In this document: piece after piece, positions 2,075 to 36,005 of the stretch | Layout of the letters: every line of letters starts with the position of its first letter | How positions within the stretch are numbered: position 1 is the stretch's first letter | Assembly: GCA_031265585.1 (NCBI GenBank) | Contig: JAISCL010000042.1 | Location: 1 to 36,351, forward strand | Direction: 5' to 3' | Source of the DNA: Tannerella sp. | Lineage (GTDB): Bacteria > Bacteroidota > Bacteroidia > Bacteroidales > Tannerellaceae | DNA length: 36,351 nt | Notes under the pieces: model-generated | Databases searched by the model: none | What the model saw: the letters and a program-made list of their open reading frames with translations, nothing else | What the model was told of the DNA's origin: nothing | Made by a program: the position numbers and the translations under genes

Positions 2075-3067
2075 CTATATTTTTATTTTTCTAAACCGTT
2101 CATTCAGTTCCTTGATTCGCTCAATCAGTTTATCAAATGGTAAAGATTCTCCATATATCATGTTTTTCATCTTTTCGTAATCCTCTCGCCATTCATTCAT
2201 AACGAAGTCAGGCGGAACAAAATTTATCGTTTGGGGGGAATGTGTCGAATAATCGACCTCTTTCATTGCCGTCAATGTTCTTCGATGTTCAATTATTGCA
2301 TTGTATAAATCTCTGTTGTTCAATGCCTCTGTTGCAAAATCTGTATCCATTAGTTTTTCCAAATCATAGATATGGCGCGTCATTCTATCAATGCGAACTT
2401 TTTCAAATGGTTTTTGAAATTCCTCGTGCAGCAAAAAGGCTTTTTCAAGAAAAGTTCGTTGTGGAATAACAGTCGGAACTACAAAATAAGTATCGGCAAA
2501 ATCTGTATCAGGAAAATTATCAGCAATAATAGAGCGTATTTGTATATTTTCGCTTGGCTCAATCAAAGAACGTGCGCCAATTTCAATGACTACCTTATCT
2601 CTGATGTAACTTGATGCAAAAAGGGAATTATAGAGTATTTCAATTGTCTGAGGGTCTTTAGTTGTATCTTGAGTTTCCGGAACAGACAACGAATAGCCAT
2701 CAATACCATTATCTTTCAATTTATTGTCTAATTCTTCTTTTAATTTTCCGCTAATATAAGTGCAAGATGCTCGACGTAAATTGTTGATTTGTTTCTTTTT
2801 CAATTCCCCATCGAAACCAAAGAATTTGCGGTCGATAGCAATGTCAACATCTTCCGAAAATCGCTCAATCAGATTCCAAGCTTTGCTCAACGATGTTCCG
2901 CCTTTAAAAACTATATGGTCGGCACATTCGCAGGAGAACAACGCCTTAAGCGTCATCGTTACCCACCAGTCTTTTTCTACTGCATCGGGCGAAAGCTTCG
3001 TTTTGTCAGCAATATTTTCAATAATAAATATTCTTCTGTTGTCAGCAATATTTTGCCATTTGTCCAT
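2075..3067 (-). CDS. abiEii: AbiEii-type nucleotidyltransferase toxin
   Basis: Toxin of the type IV AbiE system. The family has a DNA polymerase beta-like nucleotidyltransferase fold, transfers nucleotides to a cellular target and causes growth arrest or abortive phage infection. Residues 55-62 (KGGTSLSK) are the AbiEii motif I, and residues 71-76 (SEDVDI) carry the paired metal-binding aspartates D73 and D75. The 330-residue length suits the family. It lies 3 bases after the AbiEi-like antitoxin gene and is surely co-transcribed with it. Codon use and base composition are AT-rich like the rest of the element. The assignment to the family is firm; activity is not shown by the sequence. Confidence 0.88.
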   Translation of the reverse strand: MDKWQNIADNRRIFIIENIADKTKLSPDAVEKDWWVTMTLKALFSCECADHIVFKGGTSLSKAWNLIERFSEDVDIAIDRKFFGFDGELKKKQINNLRRASCTYISGKLKEELDNKLKDNGIDGYSLSVPETQDTTKDPQTIEILYNSLFASSYIRDKVVIEIGARSLIEPSENIQIRSIIADNFPDTDFADTYFVVPTVIPQRTFLEKAFLLHEEFQKPFEKVRIDRMTRHIYDLEKLMDTDFATEALNNRDLYNAIIEHRRTLTAMKEVDYSTHSPQTINFVPPDFVMNEWREDYEKMKNMIYGESLPFDKLIERIKELNERFRKIKI

Positions 3068-3070
3068 ATA

Positions 3071-3670
3071 TCAATCATTTATAAGTTTTAATAAAATATC
3101 TGTAATCCAACGTGGAGCAATGTAAGCGTCTGCAAGTAAAATTTCTTTGGCTTCCAATGTTAGCGCATTTTTAATGATTTGAAGTTCCTTTTCCGTTACT
3201 CTATCTTTCCCTATTTCTTTTAAAGCAGCAGCAATCAAAGGCGTTATTTCTCCTCTAAAAGCAAAATTTTTAGGTGCTGTTTGTCTGAATGTAATTGTTT
3301 GTTTTCCTATGTTGATTTTACGAGTAATACCGTCAGTTAAAAAAACGACCTTCATCGGAACTTGCGTTGACAGTCCTAATTTATTTAAGGCATACAAACC
3401 TGTGGGTTGGATTCTTGATTTGTCGCGTTTAGCAATAGCTCTTGCCACTCTTTCGATAGACGGAAATAAGATTCCCAGTTCTTTGTCTATGTAGGGGAAC
3501 AAATAAACACCTTTTGATAATCGGATGATAGTGCCTTCTTTACAGATGCGAGATAGCGATTGCCTAATAGATTCACTACTGCCGGCTGAATCAAACTGTT
3601 CAGGGAAGAAAATTGTTCCCTGTTCGAATTGTAAAATAGTATTTAATACCTGTTGATGAGTAGATTGCAT
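3071..3670 (-). CDS. abiEi: AbiEi-type antitoxin / DUF6088 regulator
   Basis: A 199-residue cytoplasmic protein that pairs with the AbiEii toxin. The N-terminal 65 residues form a winged helix (SIRQSLSRICKEGTIIRLSKGVYLFP), as in AbiEi antitoxins and DUF6088 proteins, followed by an AbiEi_C-like region to the end. Known AbiEi antitoxins counter the toxin without a stable complex and repress their own promoter by binding inverted repeats. A perfect 15-bp inverted repeat covers the promoter just upstream of this start, which agrees with that mode of control. The gene is first in the operon. Confidence 0.82.
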   Translation of the reverse strand: MQSTHQQVLNTILQFEQGTIFFPEQFDSAGSSESIRQSLSRICKEGTIIRLSKGVYLFPYIDKELGILFPSIERVARAIAKRDKSRIQPTGLYALNKLGLSTQVPMKVVFLTDGITRKINIGKQTITFRQTAPKNFAFRGEITPLIAAALKEIGKDRVTEKELQIIKNALTLEAKEILLADAYIAPRWITDILLKLIND

Positions 3671-3683
3671 ATTCTAATCAATA

Positions 3684-3720
3684 ATTATGTCACAAAAATA
3701 CAGGATTTTTGTGACATAAT
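3684..3720 (-). promoter_or_regulatory. Perfect inverted repeat over the abiE promoter (probable AbiEi operator)
   Basis: The arms ATTATGTCACAAAAA (3684-3698) and its exact complement (3706-3720) flank a 7-base centre. On the minus strand the repeat contains TATTTTTG (3700-3693), a match to the -7 box TAnnTTTG, so a bound regulator would block transcription. It begins 13 bases before the antitoxin ATG and 5 bases after the integrase stop. It could also help terminate integrase transcripts, but the stem is AT-rich and lacks a T tract. Confidence 0.7.
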
Positions 3721-3725
3721 AAAAT

Positions 3726-4958
3726 TTAATCTCCAAAATTCGTTAGAAACGCTGCATTTTTTATCCGTTCTTCTTTTTCAAAGGATGCCAGATAGTTCTC
3801 GGTTGTCTTCAAATCACTATGCCCTAAACTGTCTGAAATATAAGCAATGTTTGCCCCGCTTCTTTTTAAAACGCTTGCAAATGAATGTCTTGCTGTATAG
3901 GTACTTATATTTGAAATCCCTAATTTATCTCCGATTTTCTTGATATGTTTGTTTATTCGGCGGGTAATATCCTGAACCCTTTTCTTTTGTTCTATCGGCG
4001 TTTCGTTTCCGGTAAGAAAAGGAAAAACATAACTGTTCGGACTTTTATCAGGATTACCCCAGCGATCAATAATCTGTTTCATTTCGGGCATGAGCAAAGC
4101 CTCTATTTCTTTCTTTTCTTTGGAAGTATGCAAAGTCTTGGAACGGTAGAAATGAATTTCATCGCCGTCAATATTGGCATATTTCAGTTTCAGCATATCA
4201 TTGATATTGATTCCGTTGCACAAATAAGAGAAAAACCATAAATCCCGATAATGCTCTGTGGCTTCTGCTCCATCTGTATAAGTGATGATTTGTTTTATCT
4301 GCTGTAAGCTCAAAGCCATTTTACGTCCTTTTCCGGTTGGAACTTCGTATTTACCTTTTCCGAAAGGATATTGAGCCTCTTTGAGAATTCCTGCATTTTT
4401 CGCTTCATTGAACAATGCTCGCATACTGCGGATATACATCGAAATGGTCGTATAACTCTTTCCTTCATTCAACATGGCTTTCTCGTATTTTTTGAGCCAA
4501 TCAACTGTAATTGAATCAAAAGCTATTTTTGTCCCGGCGTATTTTTCCAAATGCCGAAAAGCACAGGAATAGGTAATTGAGTTTCCGATAGCGCCCGCTT
4601 CGACCAAACTATCTACTTTTGCTTGAAAAGCAGAATTGAGTGTATCGCTCATACACTTTCCCAATTGGGTATTCAGTGCGTCAAAAGAAAATTTGCCTTC
4701 GCTTTCCAACGATTGAACGGTATCCCTGACCTTCTCGTATGAATATTGAAGGTCTTTTTTGATACACAACAGTTCTGTATTTTTTGTTTTATCCAATTTT
4801 TCCCAGTCTGAAACCGACATATTTTTTCCGGTAGAATAATACTTCCTATCTCGTTTATGTGTTACCCTAATCTTCACAGGATATGCACCAGACTTGGTCT
4901 CTCTGCGATTATCCAAAATGGCAGCTACCGTAATTCCATTCAAATTATATGTATCCAT
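3726..4958 (-). CDS. Tyrosine recombinase (integrase) of the element
   Basis: Site-specific recombinase that integrates and excises the element at tRNA-Val. It has 410 residues: an arm-binding domain (about 1-85), a SAM-like core-binding domain (about 105-195) and a catalytic domain (about 210-400). Visible catalytic residues are R357 (in TARHSF), H380 (LGH) and the nucleophile Y389 (TTENYL). The first catalytic arginine is replaced: the box I region reads YLCNGININD, with N251 where Arg is expected. Loss of Arg I is known in some Bacteroidetes recombinases, such as IntDOT of CTnDOT (Ser there). The gene faces away from the att site, which is 178 bases upstream. A matching promoter and a possible operator precede it. 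Confidence 0.92.
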   Translation of the reverse strand: MDTYNLNGITVAAILDNRRETKSGAYPVKIRVTHKRDRKYYSTGKNMSVSDWEKLDKTKNTELLCIKKDLQYSYEKVRDTVQSLESEGKFSFDALNTQLGKCMSDTLNSAFQAKVDSLVEAGAIGNSITYSCAFRHLEKYAGTKIAFDSITVDWLKKYEKAMLNEGKSYTTISMYIRSMRALFNEAKNAGILKEAQYPFGKGKYEVPTGKGRKMALSLQQIKQIITYTDGAEATEHYRDLWFFSYLCNGININDMLKLKYANIDGDEIHFYRSKTLHTSKEKKEIEALLMPEMKQIIDRWGNPDKSPNSYVFPFLTGNETPIEQKKRVQDITRRINKHIKKIGDKLGISNISTYTARHSFASVLKRSGANIAYISDSLGHSDLKTTENYLASFEKEERIKNAAFLTNFGD

Positions 4959-26534: not shown

Positions 26535-27569
26535 ATGAAAAAACTGTTTTTTTTCCTGATGATTAGCGTCGGCGCTTTGGCAAAAGCCGTGGACGGTTAT
26601 GTGTATGATATGAATAACAATCCATTGGAAAATGTAGAGGTTAGAAACGTAAAATCCGGGAAAGTCATCTTTTCCAACTGTACCGGTTTTTTTTCAGTTG
26701 AGGGTGACGATCGTGATACGATTCTCTTTACACTTGCAGAATATGTAACGAACGGGTTGACAATAAGAAACATAAAGAACTCTAACGGAAAGATATTTCT
26801 GTTTAATGAATTGATTTTTGAATTGCCGGAAGTCACTGTGACACCTGATCATAATATGTATGCGTTACATGAAAAAGCAATTTATAACTTAAAAAGCAGA
26901 TTAATTAAGAATAAGGCGATATCCTACGAATGTACACATTTTGAAAAAGAAATAAATTCCGGCGACGGGAGGGGATTGAATATATTATTCACAGCCGTGT
27001 TGAATACTGTTAATCCGAGGCGAAAAAATGTAAATTATAAGTTCTTCTTATCAAAATTAGAAGTTACTCCCGCTACTCAAACGAGTGAAATAATGAAAGA
27101 TAATAAACTGTACGAGCCAAATTTATTTTTTGAGTTTATCAACAATAAAATGCCCAAATCAAAAGAAAATTCAATACAAATTTCAGACTCAATCATCGTA
27201 ATTAAGAATGGATACAATGATAATGCTATAATATGTACAATTGACAAAGCAGATACGACTCTTATTAAGGTTGAATATGCAGTTAAGTCAGACCCGAAAT
27301 ACAGGCAATTCAGGACATTTAAGGTAAAACAGGTATATTACTCATTTTCGGTGGAGTTCAGGAAAGAAGAGGAAGGATACTGTTTGTATGAATTAGTTGT
27401 CAATGAGGATTTTTCATTTTTAGCAGGGAAACCTGAAAAAGAAGAACGTATAATTGGCTCGTACAAAATTTCAACATTACCTTATACGATACAGGATGCA
27501 TCTTTAAACATCGAACTTGATACGCGAATACTTTATAATATGGGTAATTATCCGGCTCTATCGGATTAA
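26535..27569 (+). CDS. Exported protein with CarboxypepD_reg-like domain
   Basis: A 344-residue protein with a short signal peptide (MKKLFFFLMISVGALAKA) and an N-terminal carboxypeptidase regulatory-like beta-sandwich (about 18-105: VDGYVYDMNNNPLENVEVRNVKSG, then LPEVTVTP). The remaining 240 residues are beta-rich and end in a region typical of Bacteroidetes proteins that pair this domain with an unknown envelope domain. No TonB plug is present. The gene is clearly more AT-rich than the conserved genes upstream and has its own promoter. It might belong to the signalling cluster after it, but there is a 200-base gap and no direct evidence. Confidence 0.65.
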   Translation: MKKLFFFLMISVGALAKAVDGYVYDMNNNPLENVEVRNVKSGKVIFSNCTGFFSVEGDDRDTILFTLAEYVTNGLTIRNIKNSNGKIFLFNELIFELPEVTVTPDHNMYALHEKAIYNLKSRLIKNKAISYECTHFEKEINSGDGRGLNILFTAVLNTVNPRRKNVNYKFFLSKLEVTPATQTSEIMKDNKLYEPNLFFEFINNKMPKSKENSIQISDSIIVIKNGYNDNAIICTIDKADTTLIKVEYAVKSDPKYRQFRTFKVKQVYYSFSVEFRKEEEGYCLYELVVNEDFSFLAGKPEKEERIIGSYKISTLPYTIQDASLNIELDTRILYNMGNYPALSD

Positions 27570-27699
27570 GTATAACTCCACTTTTGTCAGATTGGATTTA
27601 ATTTTTATTTTTTGTGTCTTTAAGTTTGATTATAAACATAATATAAGTGGATTCTGTCGTTGAATATCGTAAATTGCAGAAATAAAATATCCGGATAAT

Positions 27700-27730
27700 T
27701 TTGGAAGTATTGATAAAAAACGTACTTTTG
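27700..27730 (+). promoter_or_regulatory. Promoter of the LytTR-FHA unit
   Basis: TTTG (27700-27703), a 19-base spacer and TACTTTTG (27723-27730) match the consensus. Transcription would start near 27736, so a coding start at the in-frame TTG of 27701 is excluded and the ATG at 27773 is favoured. Confidence 0.7.
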
Positions 27731-27772: not shown

Positions 27773-28183
27773 ATGGACAAATATTTGATGATAAAGACAC
27801 GTGATGAGTTGTTGCGTATAAATATTGAGCGTATCTTATATTTTGAAGCGGACCGGAATTATACCAAGCTACTTTTGGCAGAGGGCATTCAATTTACTTT
27901 TGCCGTTAATATTGGTAAAATAGAAGAAATGCTGGCTGTCCAGATATCGAATCCGGATACTATCCTCATTCGCGTCGGGAAAAGTTATATCGTTAATAAG
28001 AAACATATATTACAGATAAATCTACCCAAACAGAAGCTGTTATTATTAGCCGGTGAAAGTAAACCCCGGGAGTTGACGATTCCAAAAGATCCGCTCAGGG
28101 CTTTGAAGGATTCATTGGAGGCCGAAGTTTTGGGCGCCGGTAAACTAACTGCAGCCAAAGAGGGTGAAAATAATGAAAGTTAA
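27773..28183 (+). CDS. Stand-alone LytTR DNA-binding protein
   Basis: A 136-residue cytoplasmic transcription factor that is almost only a LytTR domain (about 1-105). It opens KYLMIKTRDELLRINIERILYFEADRNYTKLLL and contains the conserved FxRVxKSYIVN-like stretch ILIRVGKSYIVNKKHI. No receiver or sensor domain is present, so control must come from another partner. The tail after residue 110 is variable. The stop overlaps the start of the FHA gene by 11 bases. As first gene of the cluster it is the natural DNA-binding output of the kinase/FHA system; this link is inferred. Confidence 0.82.
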   Translation: MDKYLMIKTRDELLRINIERILYFEADRNYTKLLLAEGIQFTFAVNIGKIEEMLAVQISNPDTILIRVGKSYIVNKKHILQINLPKQKLLLLAGESKPRELTIPKDPLRALKDSLEAEVLGAGKLTAAKEGENNES

Positions 28184-28826
28184 AATAGGAAAAGCCAGTG
28201 ATAATGATTTTGTAATTAACGATCCGCAGGTGAGTCGTTATCATGCCTTGTTGACACAAGACGAAAACCGCGATTTGTTATTGGAAGACCTTGGTTCAAC
28301 GAATGGAACTTTTGTAAATGACTGCCAGATTGTCAAAAAACGTGTAACTTCAGAAGAAAGGGTTACGTTTGGGACAGCTTACACCGTGTCGATCCATGAC
28401 ATACTGAAAAGAGACAACGATTACAGTGAAGAGTTTGTACGCCTTAAAGATGTGTATGACGGTTATATTAAGGAAAAAATACGAATCCAGTCCAGTAACC
28501 AGTTTAAAACAAGACTGTTTCAATCCCTGCCTTTTGCCGTAATCGGTGTTGCCGGAATTGTACTCGGTTTTATGGGGCATACGAATAAAGGTCTTTTTGT
28601 CTTCAGTTTTATTCTGGCAGTTTGCGCTCCGACGATCGGTATCTATTTCGGTGCACGCCAGGCCGCCAAAATACCGGCCCAGCTGCAACGCCTTGCCAAT
28701 CAGTTCAAAATAGACTATGTCTGTCCTAAATGCGGCACCTTTCTGGGTGAGATCCCGTGGGAATCTTTAAGTAATAAAAAGCGGTGTCCGGTGTCTTCGT
28801 GCAGGGCCAAATGGATTCGTACCTGA
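28173..28826 (+). CDS. Membrane FHA protein with C-terminal zinc ribbon
   Basis: A 217-residue phospho-threonine reader anchored in the inner membrane. The FHA domain (1-75) keeps the binding residues S21, R22 and H24 (SRYH) and the loop DLGSTNGTFVND (39-50). A charged linker (78-112) may form a helix. Two membrane helices follow (about 118-134 and 139-159). The C-terminus has four cysteines (C184, C187, C205, C210) in a zinc ribbon. Both ends should face the cytoplasm. I start at the ATG; an in-frame GTG three codons earlier is possible. It probably docks the phosphorylated kinase or another Thr-phosphorylated partner at the membrane. Confidence 0.85.
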   Translation: MKVKIGKASDNDFVINDPQVSRYHALLTQDENRDLLLEDLGSTNGTFVNDCQIVKKRVTSEERVTFGTAYTVSIHDILKRDNDYSEEFVRLKDVYDGYIKEKIRIQSSNQFKTRLFQSLPFAVIGVAGIVLGFMGHTNKGLFVFSFILAVCAPTIGIYFGARQAAKIPAQLQRLANQFKIDYVCPKCGTFLGEIPWESLSNKKRCPVSSCRAKWIRT

Positions 28827-28916
28827 AATCTTGAGATTTGTACAATAATTCCTGTATTTTGTCCGTTATGAAGAAAATGTAAAAGGTAAACCCTGTTACA
28901 TTTATCCGGATCGTTA

Positions 28917-28924
28917 TATATTTG
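28917..28924 (+). promoter_or_regulatory. -7 box upstream of the Asp-rich protein gene
   Basis: TATATTTG matches the -7 consensus and lies 25 bases before the ATG. The -33 region is weak (TGTT at 28894-28897, 20 bases upstream). It would drive the Asp-rich, zinc/FHA and PP2C genes as a unit. Confidence 0.5.
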
Positions 28925-28949
28925 CAACAGAATTTTAATTATAACAGAT

Positions 28950-29216
28950 ATGAAAGATGAATATACATTCGTTACGTTAGATAACGATATGGTCACTACA
29001 GGAGATGCCGTTTTTGTCGATATTGATGATACGGTGAATTCGGATATGGATTTCGTCCAGATAGATGATTCGTATAATCTTGATTTACAGATTGACGGTG
29101 TTATGGGCGACAGTGCTGATTTTATCACAATGGATGATATGGATATGATCAATGATTTTGATATTGATTCTTATTCATCTGATATAAGTGAGTCAGATGT
29201 ATCCATCATCTTATGA
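28950..29216 (+). CDS. Small Asp-rich acidic repeat protein, family not recognised
   Basis: An 88-residue protein with 23 Asp, 2 Glu, a single Lys and no Arg or His. It has four copies of an F-(V/I)-x-(I/L/M)-D-(D/N) motif (residues 7-12, 22-27, 35-40, 58-63), giving alternating hydrophobic and acidic residues that could form beta strands or bind divalent metal ions. There is no signal peptide or membrane helix. Its stop overlaps the start of the zinc/FHA gene by 4 bases (ATGA), so it is translated as part of the cluster and is very likely a real gene. Ser and Thr residues near acidic groups are possible kinase targets. Its role is unknown. Confidence 0.72.
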   Translation: MKDEYTFVTLDNDMVTTGDAVFVDIDDTVNSDMDFVQIDDSYNLDLQIDGVMGDSADFITMDDMDMINDFDIDSYSSDISESDVSIIL

Positions 29217-29728
29217 TTTCTATTAAATGCCCGCATTGCAGAGTAGGACTTAAAGTTGACGAGACAAGAATACCGAAGGGGATTGAATTTTTTAACTGTC
29301 CGAAATGCAAGCGGGAAATACCCATATCTTATCTGGATCAGAAACTTGAACAGGATTCTGATGTGGAGACATTAGTTGTCTCCAAGGCAAAAGATAAAGG
29401 TATCGGACGTCTTATCGTTCTTCCGGGTATTGATACGCCTCAACAGGAATTTCAGTTGAACGAAGGTATTATGATTGTTGGTCGTAAGGCAAAAGTCTCT
29501 ACGGCCAATATTTGTATACAAACCGGTGACAAGACGATGAGCCGTAACCATATTCGCATAGAAGTGAAGAAAAATTCGAAAGGCGGGTATTTTCGTTCCC
29601 TTTCGGACAATAACAGTAAAAATAATACGTTATATAATGGAAAATGCATTGAAAACGGAGATGTGGTGGTGTTGAAAGATAATGATGAAATTGTGATGGG
29701 GCGCACGACTATCCGTTTTAATGAGTAA
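29213..29728 (+). CDS. Zinc-ribbon FHA protein
   Basis: A 171-residue cytoplasmic protein. An N-terminal zinc ribbon (C6, C9, C29, C32, similar to MJ0042-type) is followed by a short linker (DSDVETLVVSK, with T53) and an FHA domain (about 64-170). The FHA residues are R91, S110, R111 and H113 (MSRNH) and N138 (KNNT). The linker Thr stands in an acidic setting just before the FHA domain, as in mycobacterial GarA, where such a Thr is phosphorylated and then bound by the protein's own FHA domain. That comparison is an inference. The PP2C gene follows 8 bases later. Confidence 0.85.
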   Translation: MISIKCPHCRVGLKVDETRIPKGIEFFNCPKCKREIPISYLDQKLEQDSDVETLVVSKAKDKGIGRLIVLPGIDTPQQEFQLNEGIMIVGRKAKVSTANICIQTGDKTMSRNHIRIEVKKNSKGGYFRSLSDNNSKNNTLYNGKCIENGDVVVLKDNDEIVMGRTTIRFNE

Positions 29729-29736
29729 AACCATAT

Positions 29737-30549
29737 ATGACCATGAACATTACAATAGAAAGACCGTTTGCTGCAACCGAAAAGGGGATGCGTATCAATA
29801 ACGAAGATTTTATATACCCGCTATCGGAACTTGCTGATTCCGGACAGCGTCTTTTTATGGTATGCGACGGTGTCGGCGGGGCGGAAAAAGGAGAGATTGC
29901 CAGCGCCCTTGCCTGTGATTCGTTCCAGTCTTTTTTTGAAACATTTTTTGAAGATGACGATCCTTCCGAAGATTTTATAAACAGGGTCATCCGTTATACG
30001 GAATCCCGGTTCGATGAATATGTAAAATCGCATCCTGAAGCAAAAGGTATGGCGACTACATTAACGTTTTTATATGTCGGTGTTTCCGGAATTACGATCG
30101 CCCATATCGGAGACAGCCGGATTTATCAGTTCCGTAACGGGAAGATTCTCCGTGCAACGGAAGATCATTCGCTTGTTAATTCATGGGTCAAATTAGGCCG
30201 GATAACCAGAGAGGAAGCGATTGTCCATCCGCAGAAAAATGTTATAACAAGGGCCATAACGGGAACGGACGATTCGGTATGTGCCGATGTGGCGCTTATT
30301 ACCGACATACAGCCGGGGGATTATTTCCTGATGTGCACGGACGGTGTTTCGGAATGTTTTACAGATGAAAAACTGGAAGCTGTTTTTTCCCGTGGACTAA
30401 ATGCCGAATCTGTTAAGAATATGATTGTAGAGTATTGTGCGGATGAGGCCAGAGATAATTTTTCTTTCTATATATTGCCGGTTTTGGGTGTACAAAAAAT
30501 AGCCGGATATAAACAATATCTCCTTTCTTTCTTTTATTCTTTAGCGTAA
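29737..30549 (+). CDS. PP2C-family Ser/Thr phosphatase
   Basis: Removes phosphate from Ser/Thr residues with two metal ions; the counterpart of the kinase encoded next. It has 270 residues and no membrane segment. Signature stretches are NNEDF (21-25), CDGVGGAEKGE (43-53), GMATTLTFLYV (104-114), AHIGDSRIYQFRNG (122-135), CTDGVSECF (200-208) and RDNFSFYIL (239-247); D44, D202 and D240 are the metal ligands. An alternative ATG lies two codons downstream. Kinase-PP2C-FHA neighbours are the standard bacterial Ser/Thr phosphorylation set. Confidence 0.93.
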   Translation: MTMNITIERPFAATEKGMRINNEDFIYPLSELADSGQRLFMVCDGVGGAEKGEIASALACDSFQSFFETFFEDDDPSEDFINRVIRYTESRFDEYVKSHPEAKGMATTLTFLYVGVSGITIAHIGDSRIYQFRNGKILRATEDHSLVNSWVKLGRITREEAIVHPQKNVITRAITGTDDSVCADVALITDIQPGDYFLMCTDGVSECFTDEKLEAVFSRGLNAESVKNMIVEYCADEARDNFSFYILPVLGVQKIAGYKQYLLSFFYSLA

Positions 30550-30563
30550 AAATCGTATCTTTG
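30532..30563 (+). promoter_or_regulatory. Promoter of the kinase gene
   Basis: TTTT (30532-30535), a 20-base spacer and TATCTTTG (30556-30563) make a near-consensus promoter that starts inside the end of the PP2C gene, so the kinase can be expressed on its own. Confidence 0.55.
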
Positions 30564-30590
30564 TGCGGAATTAGTTAGTAGAGAGTATTT

Positions 30591-32474
30591 ATGAATTTAC
30601 CTGACGGATATTTTTTACAGAAAAAGAAATACCAGCTTACTTATACCATCGGCCAGGGCGGTTTCGGTATCACGTATTTGGGCGTATGGAATACGGAGGT
30701 AAAAGGAGGGCTTGGTGCAATGAAAACGAAAGTGCCTGTCTGTATAAAGGAATATTTCTTTAAAGACTATTGCTATCGCGATAAGGATTCGTATGCCGTC
30801 AAGGTTCATTCCGAGACCGGTGAAAAATTATTTGATAAATTTAAGGAAAAGTTAATCAAGGAAGCCAATATTCTCTCGGAAGTACAACATCCTTATATCG
30901 TCAATGTGCTGGAAGTGTTTGAAGAAAATAACACAGCCTATATTGTCATGGAGTATATAGAAGGCTGTTCTCTTAAATATATGCTTGATAAAGAGGGTGT
31001 CCTGACTGAAAATAAAGTGCTTAAATACGTTCACCAGATTGGAAACGCCCTTGATTTTGCACATGAGAAAAGTGTTGTGCACCTTGATATTAAACCCAGT
31101 AATATTCTTATTGATAAAGAAGACAATGCACGCCTTATTGATTTTGGAGTGAGCAAGCGGTATGACATAGACAAGCAGGAGACGAGTACAACGACACTTA
31201 CCCTGTCAAAAGGTTTTGCTTCTATTGAACAATATGATAATGAGGGGACGCAAAACTTTTCGCCCTGTCCTGATATATACTCTTTGGGGGCTACGATGTA
31301 TAATCTCCTGACGGGAATCATTCCGGTAGAGTCGATCTTGCGGGCAACCAAACAAATGCTGTCTCCGTCATCATACAATTCGAATGTAACGCAAAAAACC
31401 GAAAACGTGATCCTGAAAGCGATGGAGGTGAAGCCGGAAGATCGTTATCAGGTTATAAAGGAGATGCTTGCATCATTAGATATCCCTCCCTATGAGCTTA
31501 CCGAAAATACGCTTGTAGAATCGGAAAAACAGAGGGGAAATGATGCGACGGAAGTGTTGAATGCAGATTTTTCTAAAGCCGATGGCGATGAGGACAGGAC
31601 GATAGCGGTTTCTTCATCCGTAAATGAAGATTTCCGGGAAAGCAGTTCCCATTCATGGAAAAAAACAAAAAGAAGAATATTTTTGCCGGTTGCGATCTTA
31701 TTTTTTGCTTTTATTGGGTATGCCATATATAGCTATTTTGAGAATATTACGACCTCACGAAGTGCTTCCGGTATTGATATGCCGGGTGCAGGACATAGTA
31801 TAGTAGATACGGGACGTCTTGATAATAAGTTGTCTGTAATCTCCGGAATACCCGATCAGCAGGTTGGGCAGAAGCCGGAGGATGATGACCGGGAGCAGGG
31901 TGGAATGGAACAACAGCAGTCCGACCCGGAGAATGCATCTTCAAAGTCGGAAACCGGAACAGAACAGGGCCGGACACCCGATGTTCAATCCGGAGTAACT
32001 CCTCCCCAGCCTTCGGATTTGTCTGCTGAAAATCTCCAGGCTGCAGCAGAGGAAGAAGCAAGGATAGAGAAGGAATATCAGGAGCTTGTCGCTTCTGCAA
32101 AAAACAAAATGAAAAGTAAGGACTATACCGGTGCGTATGACGACCTGATGAGCGCTGTAAATAAGAAAACAACGGAGGAAGCGCTTAACCTTATGCAACA
32201 ATGCAGGGAGGAAAAAGAAAAGAATATAGTAAAAGAGAGATTGGCTAAATATTTAATATTTGACAAGATTGATTTTGGGGATTTGAAAATCGTAAGAAAA
32301 TTGGATTCAGGTCTTTTTGGTGCAATCAATGCAAAAGGCGAGGAGGTGATACCGTGTAAATACCTGGATACGGATACATCAAATGATGATCGCCTCTTTC
32401 TGCGTGAGGACAATCTGTATGATGTTTATGATAATAAAGGAAGGAATATGGGTACAAAATCTGCAGACTTATGA
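30591..32474 (+). CDS. Membrane Ser/Thr protein kinase with WG-like ectodomain
   Basis: A 627-residue inner-membrane kinase. The cytoplasmic kinase domain (about 15-295) has the glycine loop GQGGFGITYLG (21-31), K53 (VCIKEYF), VVHLDIKPSNIL (162-173) with catalytic D166 and N171, and DFG at 184-186. The Arg of the usual HRD is Leu165, a non-RD kinase. A juxtamembrane linker carries T320 and T337 in FHA-type contexts. One membrane helix (about 363-382) leads to an acidic, Gln-rich spacer (about 385-480), a charged helical part with a TPR-like helix pair (485-550), and a C-terminal WG-like repeat (LFGAINAKGEEVIPCKY, 575-590). The outside part may sense envelope signals. Confidence 0.9.
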   Translation: MNLPDGYFLQKKKYQLTYTIGQGGFGITYLGVWNTEVKGGLGAMKTKVPVCIKEYFFKDYCYRDKDSYAVKVHSETGEKLFDKFKEKLIKEANILSEVQHPYIVNVLEVFEENNTAYIVMEYIEGCSLKYMLDKEGVLTENKVLKYVHQIGNALDFAHEKSVVHLDIKPSNILIDKEDNARLIDFGVSKRYDIDKQETSTTTLTLSKGFASIEQYDNEGTQNFSPCPDIYSLGATMYNLLTGIIPVESILRATKQMLSPSSYNSNVTQKTENVILKAMEVKPEDRYQVIKEMLASLDIPPYELTENTLVESEKQRGNDATEVLNADFSKADGDEDRTIAVSSSVNEDFRESSSHSWKKTKRRIFLPVAILFFAFIGYAIYSYFENITTSRSASGIDMPGAGHSIVDTGRLDNKLSVISGIPDQQVGQKPEDDDREQGGMEQQQSDPENASSKSETGTEQGRTPDVQSGVTPPQPSDLSAENLQAAAEEEARIEKEYQELVASAKNKMKSKDYTGAYDDLMSAVNKKTTEEALNLMQQCREEKEKNIVKERLAKYLIFDKIDFGDLKIVRKLDSGLFGAINAKGEEVIPCKYLDTDTSNDDRLFLREDNLYDVYDNKGRNMGTKSADL

Positions 32475-32541
32475 TTAATAACTTTAAACATACTATTTTT
32501 ACTGCTTTTCCATCTTTTGTTTTTATTTTTTTCATCCTTTA

Positions 32542-32573
32542 TTTCATTCATATTATATAATCTTTTATCTTTG
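32542..32573 (+). promoter_or_regulatory. Promoter of the outer-membrane protein/lipoprotein pair
   Basis: TTTC (32542-32545), a 20-base spacer and TATCTTTG (32566-32573) are close to consensus. Transcription would begin near 32580, just before the ATG at 32604, which excludes a start further upstream. Confidence 0.55.
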
Positions 32574-32575
32574 TG

Positions 32576-32597
32576 CTTCAAAAAAACTTTTTTGAAG
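32576..32597 (+). repeat. Inverted repeat in the leader of the outer-membrane protein gene
   Basis: CTTCAAAAAA and TTTTTTGAAG pair over 10 bases with only 2 bases between them. It covers nearly the whole predicted leader, 7 bases before the ATG. It may be an operator or shape translation initiation. Confidence 0.5.
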
Positions 32598-32603
32598 AAG
32601 AAA

Positions 32604-33560
32604 ATGATGAAAAGAATAATGATTATATTTGTGCTGTTGCCTGTAACTTTTTATGTTACAGCGCAAAGACAGACTGAATATAACAGACAGGGAGATGAAG
32701 CCATGGAGCGCCTTGATTACAGCGCTGCCAAGGTCTGGTATGAGGAAGGCATTTCAAATTGTGACCCTTATAGCATTAATCAATTAACTTCTATCTGGCT
32801 GGCTGACGAATCCATGCGCATATCCATGCGCAATGTAATGAGACGCTGCCTGGATTGCCTTACAAACCGTGCTACCGAATTTAAAGATTCAATAAGCATG
32901 AATAAACTGATTCTGTATTACACGGAAGGGATCGGGACCTATAAAAATGAAGCGAAAGTGAACTTTTGGGAAAGCCAGATAGCGTTATTGCAAAATACAT
33001 CTATTGTGAACGGGAGAACTTCAAAAACTCCCCGTGAAAAAGTGAAAATGAAATTTTTTGCCGGATATTCGGCTTCCTATTATGCACCTTATGGACTTAC
33101 GGTGGGTGGAGTGGGGAGAACGGTTGGATGGTATCTGCGTTTTCGTACGAACCTGTCATTTCAGGATTTTTCGGAAACCTGTAACAGCGATGGGAGTATA
33201 GAAGGAGGTTTGCCCGGCAGTTTGCCTAACTGGACAAAACAGGATCCGGATAAAATTAACTTCTTAATGGCTACAGGAGGGCTTATGGTTAAGGTTGCCC
33301 CTTCATTTTTTATCTCAGCGGGTGCGGGGTATTGTAAGCGCGAAGCTATTTATAAAGTGGAAAAAATAAGTATTGACGAAGGCCGTTCCGAAGGATTTAT
33401 CTGGGCTAAATATAATGATAAAAAATCATCTTTTGATGGGGTTGCGTTGGATTTGGACGGAACATTCCGTATGGGAAAAGTGTTGTACGGTTCGCTTGGC
33501 TGTAGCTTACTCAATTTTGAGAATATATCTGCAAATGCAGGTATAGGTGTATTTTTCTAA
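32604..33560 (+). CDS. Exported TPR-like/beta-barrel outer-membrane protein
   Basis: A 318-residue protein with a signal peptide cleaved after VTA20 (before QRQTEYN). Residues about 25-150 are helical with a TPR-like unit (NRQGDEAMERLDYSAAKVWYEEGISNCDP). From about 170 to the end the chain has alternating aromatic strands (MKFFAGYSASYYAPYGLTVGGVG, WYLRFRTNLSFQDF, FFISAGAGYC) and finishes in GIGVFF with a terminal Phe, as in outer-membrane barrels. It is 11 bases before the FN3/Kelch lipoprotein gene and shares its transcript. It could anchor or expose that lipoprotein. I know no exact family. Confidence 0.72.
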   Translation: MMKRIMIIFVLLPVTFYVTAQRQTEYNRQGDEAMERLDYSAAKVWYEEGISNCDPYSINQLTSIWLADESMRISMRNVMRRCLDCLTNRATEFKDSISMNKLILYYTEGIGTYKNEAKVNFWESQIALLQNTSIVNGRTSKTPREKVKMKFFAGYSASYYAPYGLTVGGVGRTVGWYLRFRTNLSFQDFSETCNSDGSIEGGLPGSLPNWTKQDPDKINFLMATGGLMVKVAPSFFISAGAGYCKREAIYKVEKISIDEGRSEGFIWAKYNDKKSSFDGVALDLDGTFRMGKVLYGSLGCSLLNFENISANAGIGVFF

Positions 33561-33571
33561 ATAAAAGGACA

Positions 33572-35776
33572 ATGAAACGGTTATTATACATAAATATTCT
33601 TGCGGTTGGTTTTTTTCTGTTGCTATTTTCCGGTTGTATTGAAGATCCGAAAATGCAGTTGGGGGTGAGAGGCGTCGGTAAGCCTGAATTTGAGGGAGGC
33701 GCTGTATCTAAGGCTGTAACCGTCTCGACGATTGAAGTTTCAGCTAAGATAAGTAAAGCAAACGGAGCGGAAATAACAGAACGGGGCTTTTGTTACGGTA
33801 CGGAACCTTCTCCTTCTATAGAAAATAACAATACGGTACGTGATGCAAATGTGGGTATCGGCGAATATACGTTGATAATAACAGGTTTGTCTGACAGTAC
33901 GGGCTATTATATATGGCCTTATGCTATTAACTCAGGGGGAACTGCATACGGGCCGGAACTTAGAGATACAACGTATAGCGGTCAGGCTTCTGTGGTGACG
34001 CTTGATACGGTTCATACGTATGCATCAAGAGTGATGGTAGAGGGTCGTATAAATAAAGCAGGAGAAGGAGAGCCGGGAAAATGTGGCATTTATTATTCGA
34101 CAGATGAAAATTTTGAACAGAAAGATTCTGTGGAGACTGTGGTTCCGGATAATGACTCAAAAATCTACCCGTGCCTGCTTTCAGGACTTACGCCCGATAT
34201 GGAATACTATTATCAGGCGTATGTCAGGAATGACTATGGCTTGTCAACGGGCGACGTTAAATCGTTTAAAACAAAAGACGGAAAGCCGAACCTGAATCCG
34301 GTAAGTGCTGCAACCGGGTATACGGATGCCAGGTTATCATCAACTGTGGAAGACGGAGGAGACATAACGGTAATAATTGTTGAACGTGGATTTTGTTTGC
34401 GGGAACAAACTGCAGATATAGATAGTATCATACCCTCCGGCGAGGGTGGCGTTGGCTATTTTGAGGAACTGATAGAAGGATTGAAGGCGGGAGGAAGATA
34501 TATTGTGAAGGCGTATGCAAAAAGTACGGTTCTTGATGTGGATGATTTGGAGTTAACCGTATACAGTAAAGATACGCTTATTTTCACCCAACAGGATAAG
34601 CCGACTGTGGTAACGGAAGAAGTCGAAGACAGAGATGTTTTTGGCGGAAATGCTACTGTTACAGGCGCCATTTCAGCTCAGGGAAGGGGTCCCGTTATTG
34701 AGGCCGGAATCTGCTGGTCGCTGACGAATCCGGTGCCTAATACGGATGATAATTATGAGTTATCATCTGTTAATACAGAGCAGAAGTTCACCGTACGGTT
34801 AACGGGCTTAAAGGGTGGTGTTACGTATTATGTCTGTGCTTTTGCAAGGAACGTATACGGCCTGTCATACGGAGAGCCGCAAAAGTTTACTACGCCCCTG
34901 GTCTTTAATGCTAATTTAGTCACATTTGGGGGGCAGACACCCGTTCTAAGTTCTCCGGCCTATTTTGCAACGTATAATGATGGCACATTTTATTTGTTGG
35001 GAGGAGATCTTGGACCTCATTTAACAGCACAATTGTGGTCTTATACTGTTTCTGATACTAATAATGAGTGGAAACAGCTTAAATCATTTGACGGAGGAGC
35101 AGCAAAATGGCAAACCGGAGTTGGATATGGAGGAGCAGCGTATGTTTTTGGAGGAGTATATGAAGATCCTGATGCAGAGATTGGATTATATTATTATGCC
35201 CCTTCTCCTATTAATGAATGGAAGTTAAAAAGTACAGTACCTGATACGTTATATTCGGTAGCAGGCTGCGCGTATGGTAACAGTGTTGTATTTATAGGAG
35301 GACAGAAGGATACGGTAAAACAAAGTGTATGGAGTTATGAACATGGAAATGACATCTGGAAAAAGAAGTCGGATTTTCCTGTTAAGCAATATGGAGGTTT
35401 TGCTGTTGTCTATAATAATAAAATTTATGCCGGAATGGGTAAAGATGATGATGGTGTTTGTAACGGAAGGCTATGGGTGTCGGAAGATGGAGCTGACGGA
35501 TGGGATTTAGCTACCGAATGCACAGAATATCATGGCGGAATTATTTCCGGGGTAGTAAGTTCGGTGAATCGATGCATCTATGTAATAGATGAGGATTATC
35601 ATATTCTTGAATATTCTCTGGAGTTTGGTGAATGGAAAGAGAAATCCATATTGCCTTCAATATTCGAAAATAATGTTCATTGCATGTATGAGTATCAGGG
35701 TAAAATATATATAGGTCTTGGAAAAGAAGCAGATAGAAATTCGTTGATTGTCTATGACCCTTCATGGGATAATTAA
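33572..35776 (+). CDS. Surface lipoprotein with four FN3-like domains and a Kelch propeller
   Basis: A 734-residue lipoprotein (lipobox FSGC, C22). Four FN3-like modules follow (about 38-135, 142-236, 243-337, 345-441), three of them sharing an ERGFC/EAGICW-type strand and all having a (L/T)xxLxxxxxYYxxAYARN-like strand. The C-terminal 280 residues form a Kelch-like propeller, with repeated YNNKIYAGMGK, NSVVFIGGQ, GAAYVFGG and GTFYLLGG blades followed by W-bearing strands. It is presumably at the cell surface, where it may bind glycans or proteins. The last gene of the cluster; a T run without a stem follows. The ligand is unknown. Confidence 0.83.
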   Translation: MKRLLYINILAVGFFLLLFSGCIEDPKMQLGVRGVGKPEFEGGAVSKAVTVSTIEVSAKISKANGAEITERGFCYGTEPSPSIENNNTVRDANVGIGEYTLIITGLSDSTGYYIWPYAINSGGTAYGPELRDTTYSGQASVVTLDTVHTYASRVMVEGRINKAGEGEPGKCGIYYSTDENFEQKDSVETVVPDNDSKIYPCLLSGLTPDMEYYYQAYVRNDYGLSTGDVKSFKTKDGKPNLNPVSAATGYTDARLSSTVEDGGDITVIIVERGFCLREQTADIDSIIPSGEGGVGYFEELIEGLKAGGRYIVKAYAKSTVLDVDDLELTVYSKDTLIFTQQDKPTVVTEEVEDRDVFGGNATVTGAISAQGRGPVIEAGICWSLTNPVPNTDDNYELSSVNTEQKFTVRLTGLKGGVTYYVCAFARNVYGLSYGEPQKFTTPLVFNANLVTFGGQTPVLSSPAYFATYNDGTFYLLGGDLGPHLTAQLWSYTVSDTNNEWKQLKSFDGGAAKWQTGVGYGGAAYVFGGVYEDPDAEIGLYYYAPSPINEWKLKSTVPDTLYSVAGCAYGNSVVFIGGQKDTVKQSVWSYEHGNDIWKKKSDFPVKQYGGFAVVYNNKIYAGMGKDDDGVCNGRLWVSEDGADGWDLATECTEYHGGIISGVVSSVNRCIYVIDEDYHILEYSLEFGEWKEKSILPSIFENNVHCMYEYQGKIYIGLGKEADRNSLIVYDPSWDN

Positions 35777-35876: not shown

Positions 35877-35961
35877 GGAGAGATGGCAGAGTGGTCGATT
35901 GCAGCGGTCTTGAAAACCGCCGTACTGAGAGGTACCGGGGGTTCGAATCCCTCTCTCTCCG
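35877..35961 (+). tRNA. tRNA-Ser(UGA)
   Basis: An 85-base class II tRNA. The acceptor strands GGAGAGA and TCTCTCC pair fully, with discriminator G. The anticodon stem GCGGT/ACCGC holds the loop CTTGAAA with anticodon TGA (Ser). The long variable arm and the T loop TTCGAAT are present. No CCA is encoded. It has its own consensus promoter and a strong hairpin downstream. Confidence 0.95.
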
Positions 35962-36005
35962 CTTACAACATTAATTATCAGTGTTTTATAGATAGAGCAC
36001 CCACA

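Follow-up and report, generated by a model that had tools for sequence, protein, structure and literature searches.

LytTR Regulatory Systems (LRS), such as HdrRM and BrsRM of Streptococcus mutans, pair a LytTR DNA-binding protein with a membrane inhibitor. PMC6193735 describes them as positively autoregulated through 9-bp direct repeats, mostly 12 bp apart, which lie upstream of the LytTR gene and roughly 10 bp before the -35 element, and states that what HdrRM and BrsRM respond to is unknown. A second kind of switch is built on FHA domains: the FHA domains of OdhI and of DgcB from Bdellovibrio bind a threonine in the protein's own tail, with hydrophobic residues at +2 and +3 (PMC6733907), and the same is described for GarA (PMC2784874 and PMC6733907). 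A third is the threonine phosphorylation pathway (TPP) of type VI secretion systems (T6SS), TagQRST-PpkA-Fha-PppA, which has a surface lipoprotein, a Hanks kinase, an FHA protein and a PP2C phosphatase. Here we describe eight genes at positions 27773-35776 of a 36,351-nucleotide stretch of Tannerella sp. DNA (contig JAISCL010000042.1; "the window" below is this whole stretch). The gene set combines features of the LRS, of the GarA/OdhI-type switch and of the TPP, yet it is a member of neither the LRS nor the TPP, because its repeats are not where LRS repeats lie and no T6SS was found with it. No paper describing the set could be recognized by title or abstract among the matches listed in a literature search, which is weak evidence since subscription journals were mostly outside its scope.

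A check of the list of open reading frames (ORFs) bore out the original prediction of eight same-strand genes and their products: all eight ORFs are on the plus strand where they had been placed, and Pfam supports five of the named products. The first gene (27773-28183) encodes a LytTR DNA-binding protein with no receiver domain, 136 amino acids long from the likely ATG; PF04397 (7.7e-10) is the only Pfam match in its 160-amino-acid ORF, and the protein is strongly conserved across 33 loci of a first panel. The second gene (28173-28826) encodes a membrane FHA protein with an N-terminal FHA domain (PF00498, 1.5e-18), two transmembrane segments by hydropathy, and a C-terminal Cys4 zinc-ribbon-like end whose cysteines are invariant. 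As in HdrRM and BrsRM, a receiver-less LytTR gene is thus followed directly by the gene of a membrane protein in the same operon, and the stop codon of the one, at 28183, overlaps the ATG of the other, at 28173, by 11 bp. Unlike in the LRS, the protein paired with LytTR has an FHA domain and ends in a zinc-ribbon-like part, and the gene set extends into genes for a kinase, a phosphatase and surface proteins. Nowhere does the main text of the LRS paper (PMC6193735) use the term FHA.

The remaining six genes begin with that of a small Asp-rich protein (28950-29216) of 88 amino acids, 28% acidic and 1% basic, with repeated phi-phi-x-D motifs; an alignment of it covers 78 sequences. It is followed by genes for a cytoplasmic zinc-ribbon/FHA protein, below Zn-FHA, with a conserved linker threonine, Thr53 (29213-29728; PF00498, 1.1e-11), a PP2C phosphatase with its catalytic motifs (29737-30549; PF13672, 1.5e-18), and a membrane Hanks kinase (30591-32474; PF00069, 2e-42). 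The kinase has a kinase domain, juxtamembrane threonine motifs, one transmembrane segment (363-381), and a periplasmic end that weakly matches a WG repeat (WG_beta_rep, 0.0091). Last come a putative outer-membrane protein, which looks helical by eye in its N-terminal part (32604-33560, with 32604 as the likely start), and an FN3/Kelch-type lipoprotein with the lipobox FSGC, perhaps surface exposed (33572-35776), whose Kelch and FN3-type Pfam matches are weak and nearly all under the curated cut-off. No Pfam model matched the Asp-rich protein or the outer-membrane protein at 0.01, and a Pfam scan covering nine proteins found neither a histidine kinase nor a receiver domain, the parts of a two-component system. 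The tight overlaps that had been predicted stand for the LytTR/FHA junction and for the Asp-rich stop at 29216, which overlaps the Zn-FHA ATG at 29213 by 4 bp; the junctions between the membrane FHA and Asp-rich genes (a gap of 123 bp) and between the kinase and outer-membrane genes (129 bp) are looser.

The gene order is conserved across Tannerellaceae. A scan of named genomes with the membrane-FHA alignment found 99 relatives, the best 80 of which were kept as loci; these come from Tannerella, Parabacteroides or Tannerellaceae, except for one Porphyromonadaceae and one Bacteroidia bacterium. Sixty-two loci had enough room to judge, the other 18 being too short on one side. All eight genes are found in the same order and on the same strand, with gaps below 800 bp, in 55 of the 62 judgeable loci, and the LytTR gene comes first in every one of the 55. 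Four more have all eight genes with one larger gap, three are without two or three of the kinase, outer-membrane protein and lipoprotein genes, and six of the 18 short loci still show all eight. The grouping is therefore far beyond chance. The original prediction had said that it would be accidental if relatives kept the kinase and phosphatase without their neighbours; with the neighbours recurring in order, accidental grouping was ruled out. The membrane-FHA gene itself was found in 107 of 123 family genomes and in 58 of the 61 good ones, with at least one of the 107 (G071) matching only via a paralogous system.

The first panel of 40 loci, which overlaps with the 80, showed the same order in most cases. 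Its exceptions include L046, L050, L062 and L067, without the genes preceding the kinase, and L071, without a called LytTR gene; the Asp-rich gene is present in the gap at 35 of the 40. In four genomes (G080, G005, G060, G022) the cluster is split, with the kinase gene and the two surface genes lying together at a distance from the LytTR part. Two flanking genes, of 906 and 295 amino acids, were considered as members and rejected, being PPDK-like and CysE-like housekeeping genes by eye and not found beside the copy in the window. In some Parabacteroides (L042, L053, L054) the LytTR gene is immediately preceded by a fimbrillin-like lipoprotein gene, named by eye.

Across 77 loci, the gap separating the membrane FHA and Asp-rich genes has a length of 123-157 bp (middle 80%); it holds a candidate operator and an internal promoter, called P2. 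In the window, two direct repeats in 21-bp phase, TTTGTACAATA at 28837-28847 and TTTTGTCCGTTAT at 28857-28869, are followed by the P2 -7 box, TATATTTG at 28917-28924, and then by the Asp-rich ATG at 28950. The box, in the general form TANNTTTG, is found in 75 of 77 orthologous gaps, against a shuffled rate of 0.11, and the self-match at lag 21 over 73 orthologous gaps is 0.379, versus a shuffle maximum of 0.294. Gaps from Parabacteroides have a different repeat set which is equally phased. Allowing up to 3 mismatches, the strict P2 site has a single occurrence in its genome. When position weight models were made from the promoter sites themselves and run on 91 fetched loci, they matched only the Asp-rich promoter, with 0 matches for the reversed control, and found no further full-strength operator. 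Like the LRS, then, this gene set has 21-bp-phased direct repeats near one of its own promoters. The layout of 28837-28924 looks like that of a LytTR autoregulatory promoter, to which the LytTR protein may bind, and judging by this arrangement the protein probably switches on its own gene block. Between the direct repeats and the box, at 28877-28901, lies an inverted repeat, ATGTAA/TTACAT, and near relatives look similar there by eye.

The LytTR/FHA pair likely has a promoter of its own, P1, with the -7 box TACTTTTG at 27723-27730 and a TTG at 27701-27703. Two more TANNTTTG boxes lie upstream of the LytTR gene, at 27621 and 27696; such a box is found within 150 bp upstream of that gene in 73 of 73 loci, a count made without shuffle comparison. 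In the gap between the kinase and outer-membrane genes the box is found in just 7 of 56 cases (the window has TATCTTTG there, at 32566), and there is no lag-21 peak (0.310 at 21, 0.320 at 18).

The second line of evidence is a conserved threonine ahead of the FHA domain, as in GarA, OdhI and DgcB. Residue 53 of the Zn-FHA linker is Thr in 76 of 77 aligned sequences. In 65 of them it is preceded at position 52 by an acidic residue, Asp or Glu, and hydrophobic residues occupy positions 55 and 56 in nearly every case, while positions 42-51 and 57-64 are variable. The juxtamembrane segment of the kinase carries the same acidic-Thr-hydrophobic type of motif, often twice. Searched as [DE].?T[VIL][VIL] and compared with shuffled sequences, the motif occurs in 57 of 77 Zn-FHA linkers (shuffle mean 2.4, maximum 7), at least once in 46 of 67 kinase juxtamembrane segments (mean 2.9, maximum 9) and twice in 23 of the 67 (mean 0.1). 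A periplasmic segment of the kinase, used as a control, has it in 4 of 67 (mean 4.6). Among solved structures, the Zn-FHA profile comes closest, at modest E-values, to the FHA domains of Bdellovibrio DgcB (6hc1, 1.1e-05) and of mycobacterial TB39.8. Thr53 and the juxtamembrane motif thus fit an FHA switch of the GarA/OdhI/DgcB type, for which a kinase and a PP2C phosphatase are also at hand, and these threonines may be phosphorylated. Unlike GarA, OdhI and DgcB, the Zn-FHA protein begins with a zinc ribbon, and its partner kinase has copies of the motif too; the cluster holds no metabolic enzyme or GGDEF partner.

Altogether this suggests a circuit, to which we give about an even chance of being right, in which a pair resembling an LRS, made of a LytTR protein and a membrane protein, is gated by a Ser/Thr phospho-relay. 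A signal at the surface would reach the kinase, at its periplasmic end, by way of the FN3/Kelch lipoprotein and the outer-membrane protein, and the kinase would phosphorylate its own juxtamembrane motifs and Thr53 of the Zn-FHA linker. The two FHA proteins would read the phosphorylated sites; the soluble Zn-FHA protein may be switched by its own phosphothreonine, much as GarA, OdhI and DgcB are, and PP2C would reset the phosphorylation state. The membrane FHA protein would place LytTR under the control of the kinase, like the membrane partner in an LRS; we propose it as the LytTR partner because the two genes are tightly paired and overlapping, and a link between LytTR and the kinase through this protein seems more likely than a direct one. 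Released LytTR would then bind the phased repeats at 28837-28869 and drive P2, which would raise the Asp-rich protein, as the first product, along with the Zn-FHA protein, PP2C and the kinase, closing a feedback loop.

Several observations weigh against this circuit. The repeats are at an internal promoter and not upstream of the LytTR gene, and they end 47 bp ahead of the P2 -7 box, compared with roughly 10 bp before the -35 element in the LRS. Upstream of the LytTR gene itself, lag-21 repeats gave no clear peak over 73 loci (0.247, 0.282 and 0.265 in three 100-bp slices). The genome, assembled as 4.88 Mb in 383 contigs, has 11 LytTR genes. In a related locus where the LytTR/membrane-FHA pair stands without the remaining genes (L080), no repeats stand out downstream of the pair, and among eight regions of five loci with related systems only one, in L087, had phased repeats (0.025, uncorrected). 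Two findings in these related loci speak for the circuit instead. The LytTR/membrane-FHA pair of L080 is seen again in L082, where the contig ends, and the pattern TTTC[AG]TCCATTA, picked after the L087 repeats had been seen, occurs three times in 14 kb of L087, always intergenic and with two copies 21 bp apart; L087 alone was positive for it among five loci searched. A further point against the circuit is that the threonine motif in its strict form is not universal even at its two main sites, as the counts above show, and its presence alone is unspecific: it is meaningful only at a conserved position, because lipoproteins (41 of 65) and PP2C sequences (22 of 76) have it as well. Finally, in profile comparison the larger acidic proteins found in related systems do not come out as relatives of the Asp-rich protein (probability 8%), and homology between them is not supported.

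The same parts list can be read as a TPP of the T6SS kind, in which an outer-membrane lipoprotein and its partner activate the Hanks kinase, the kinase phosphorylates an FHA protein, PP2C resets the state, and a machine is gated post-translationally with LytTR being incidental. The parts do resemble TagQ/TagR-PpkA-Fha-PppA (PMC10482370), and the membrane FHA protein has a weak TagH-type match (24.8 bits against a cut-off of 120.25). However, this cluster contains a transcription factor, whose gene heads all 55 intact loci and comes with a candidate operator, and the VipB/TssC sheath gene (PF05943) was found in 0 of 123 family genomes. Regulation of a T6SS was rejected on this last count, with a control that does not cover the Bacteroidota-type T6SS: the search may miss that type because only E. 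coli among 14 control genomes was positive. We regard the TPP reading as quite improbable. A little less so, yet still unlikely, is that the locus consists of two independent units lying side by side: the LytTR/FHA-membrane pair, as an LRS, and a module of kinase, PP2C, Zn-FHA and surface proteins. Such a division would account for the four genomes with split clusters, for the pair standing alone in L080 and, up to the contig end, in L082, and for the related loci (L081, L083, L257, L258) with the core and no called LytTR gene. Against it, other families and, going by kinship labels, other orders of the class also have the membrane FHA gene next to genes for Zn-FHA, PP2C and kinase; the FHA domain implies a phosphothreonine partner; and the operator sits between the two supposed units, which would put the second under the control of LytTR.

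A further reading sees surface fimbriae as what the cluster chiefly controls: besides its own operon, LytTR would drive a fimbrial operon of type V (Mfa/FimA), making the cluster a surface-sensing adhesion switch. A pattern of the repeats plus the -7 box gave 18 matches in 13 of 123 genomes, with 0 for the reversed control; 11 are at the Asp-rich promoter and seven lie upstream of a DUF3575-like gene. In the window's genome, the only one in which Pfam confirmed these genes, the DUF3575 gene comes first in a fimbrial operon that also holds genes for DUF3868, fimbrillin and Mfa2. The corresponding Parabacteroides-type pattern gave 11 matches, all adjoining the membrane FHA gene of the cluster. 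The fimbrial sites, however, are without the second half, CGTTA, and in the three loci tested they scored too low to pass the position-weight threshold; a loose search by sequence only gave five matches, the genome's own site included, against three for the control; and a DUF3575 relative was found in only 11 of 41 genomes of the genus at 1e-40. Upstream regions could be read in 11 of 12 loci, eight with the repeats and box and three without, and seven of those eight are the pattern matches themselves. An AraC gene also lies upstream of the fimbrial operon, AraC proteins can likewise use 21-bp-phased sites, and the genome has 11 LytTR genes. It is doubtful, then, that the fimbrial operon is a second target of LytTR, and equally doubtful that fimbriae are the main output. 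The operon itself (L217, 4239-12883, of contig C156) comprises DUF3575, DUF3868, fimbrillin, Mfa2 and FimA-like genes, with the AraC gene upstream and phased repeats in the promoter.

Relatives of the gene cluster are found beyond the family. A search at the order level matched the membrane FHA protein in 8 of 344 genomes, four of them Tannerellaceae, and one at the phylum level with a looser cut matched 14 of 395, two of them Tannerellaceae; 10 of the 12 non-family matches in the latter are confined to the N-terminal FHA part. Genes for a membrane FHA protein, an acidic protein, a Zn-FHA protein, PP2C and a kinase are clustered in L081, L083 and L256-L258, with the kinase on the opposite strand in L257 and the acidic gene cut at the end of the stretch in L083. 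LytTR was not called in L081, L083, L257 and L258 and scored only 20 bits in L256, and some of these clusters include accessory genes which by eye are caspase-like or of other kinds. L084 and L087 are paralogous systems within the family, with the same kinds of parts and LytTR at the head. The resemblance to the eight-gene locus is in these five genes standing close together; the related clusters differ in their larger acidic proteins, their accessory genes, and LytTR being present only in some. Based on the outside clusters and the paralogous systems, a five-gene phospho-signalling core recurs in Bacteroidia, which we take to be the class of the outside genomes; LytTR accompanies it in only part of the cases. 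The pair of surface genes seems to be specific to Tannerellaceae, because the only match to either called in the outside loci is a 20-bit match to the outer-membrane protein on the other strand of L257.

By eye, the acidic proteins of L081, L083, L084 and L256-L258 have DxDxDG-like repeats; an acidic-Thr motif stands at the start of most of them, and T-phi-phi-phi at the end of some Zn-FHA proteins of the same loci. A Zn-FHA relative (98% of length, 28% identity) is also found in MT838606.1 and MT835920.1, two unannotated sequences from human faeces deposited as phages. The cluster was considered as an antiphage system and rejected, the PADLOC matches being generic kinase matches and one weak Zn-FHA match (18.6 bits).

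In the window, the cluster is flanked on one side by a gene at 26535-27569 with a weak carboxypeptidase-regulatory-like match and on the other by a tRNA-Ser at 35877-35962. An AT-rich region at 2075-4958 holds an integrase-like gene and an AbiE-type toxin/antitoxin-like pair, both named by eye. Elsewhere in the genome there is a second, distant Hanks-type kinase (contig C51, 7958-8575), with 31% identity over the kinase domain.

Of the original interpretation, then, the grouping stands, the mechanism by threonine phosphorylation is supported by the conserved FHA-type motifs in the kinase and the Zn-FHA protein, and the LytTR output is supported by the LytTR-like phased repeats in the internal promoter; the suggestion of envelope stress, or of any ligand, found no support. 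It is possible, at well short of even chances, that a Hanks-type kinase controlling a LytTR factor through a membrane FHA protein represents a class of transmembrane signalling, a phosphothreonine counterpart of the two-component systems. Such a class would be autoregulated via phased repeats and built on a five-gene core across Bacteroidia with interchangeable sensors and outputs, of which fimbriae may be one in Tannerella-like species.

To our knowledge, there are few bacterial Ser/Thr kinases for which the path from a surface signal to a promoter is known. The set described here joins a Ser/Thr kinase to a LytTR protein, is near family-wide, and is found in species of Parabacteroides and Tannerella, which live in the gut and mouth. 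It offers one defined candidate operator, candidate phosphosites and a tractable commensal host for tests. As a route for a signal from the surface to DNA by way of threonine phosphorylation, the gene block looks new.

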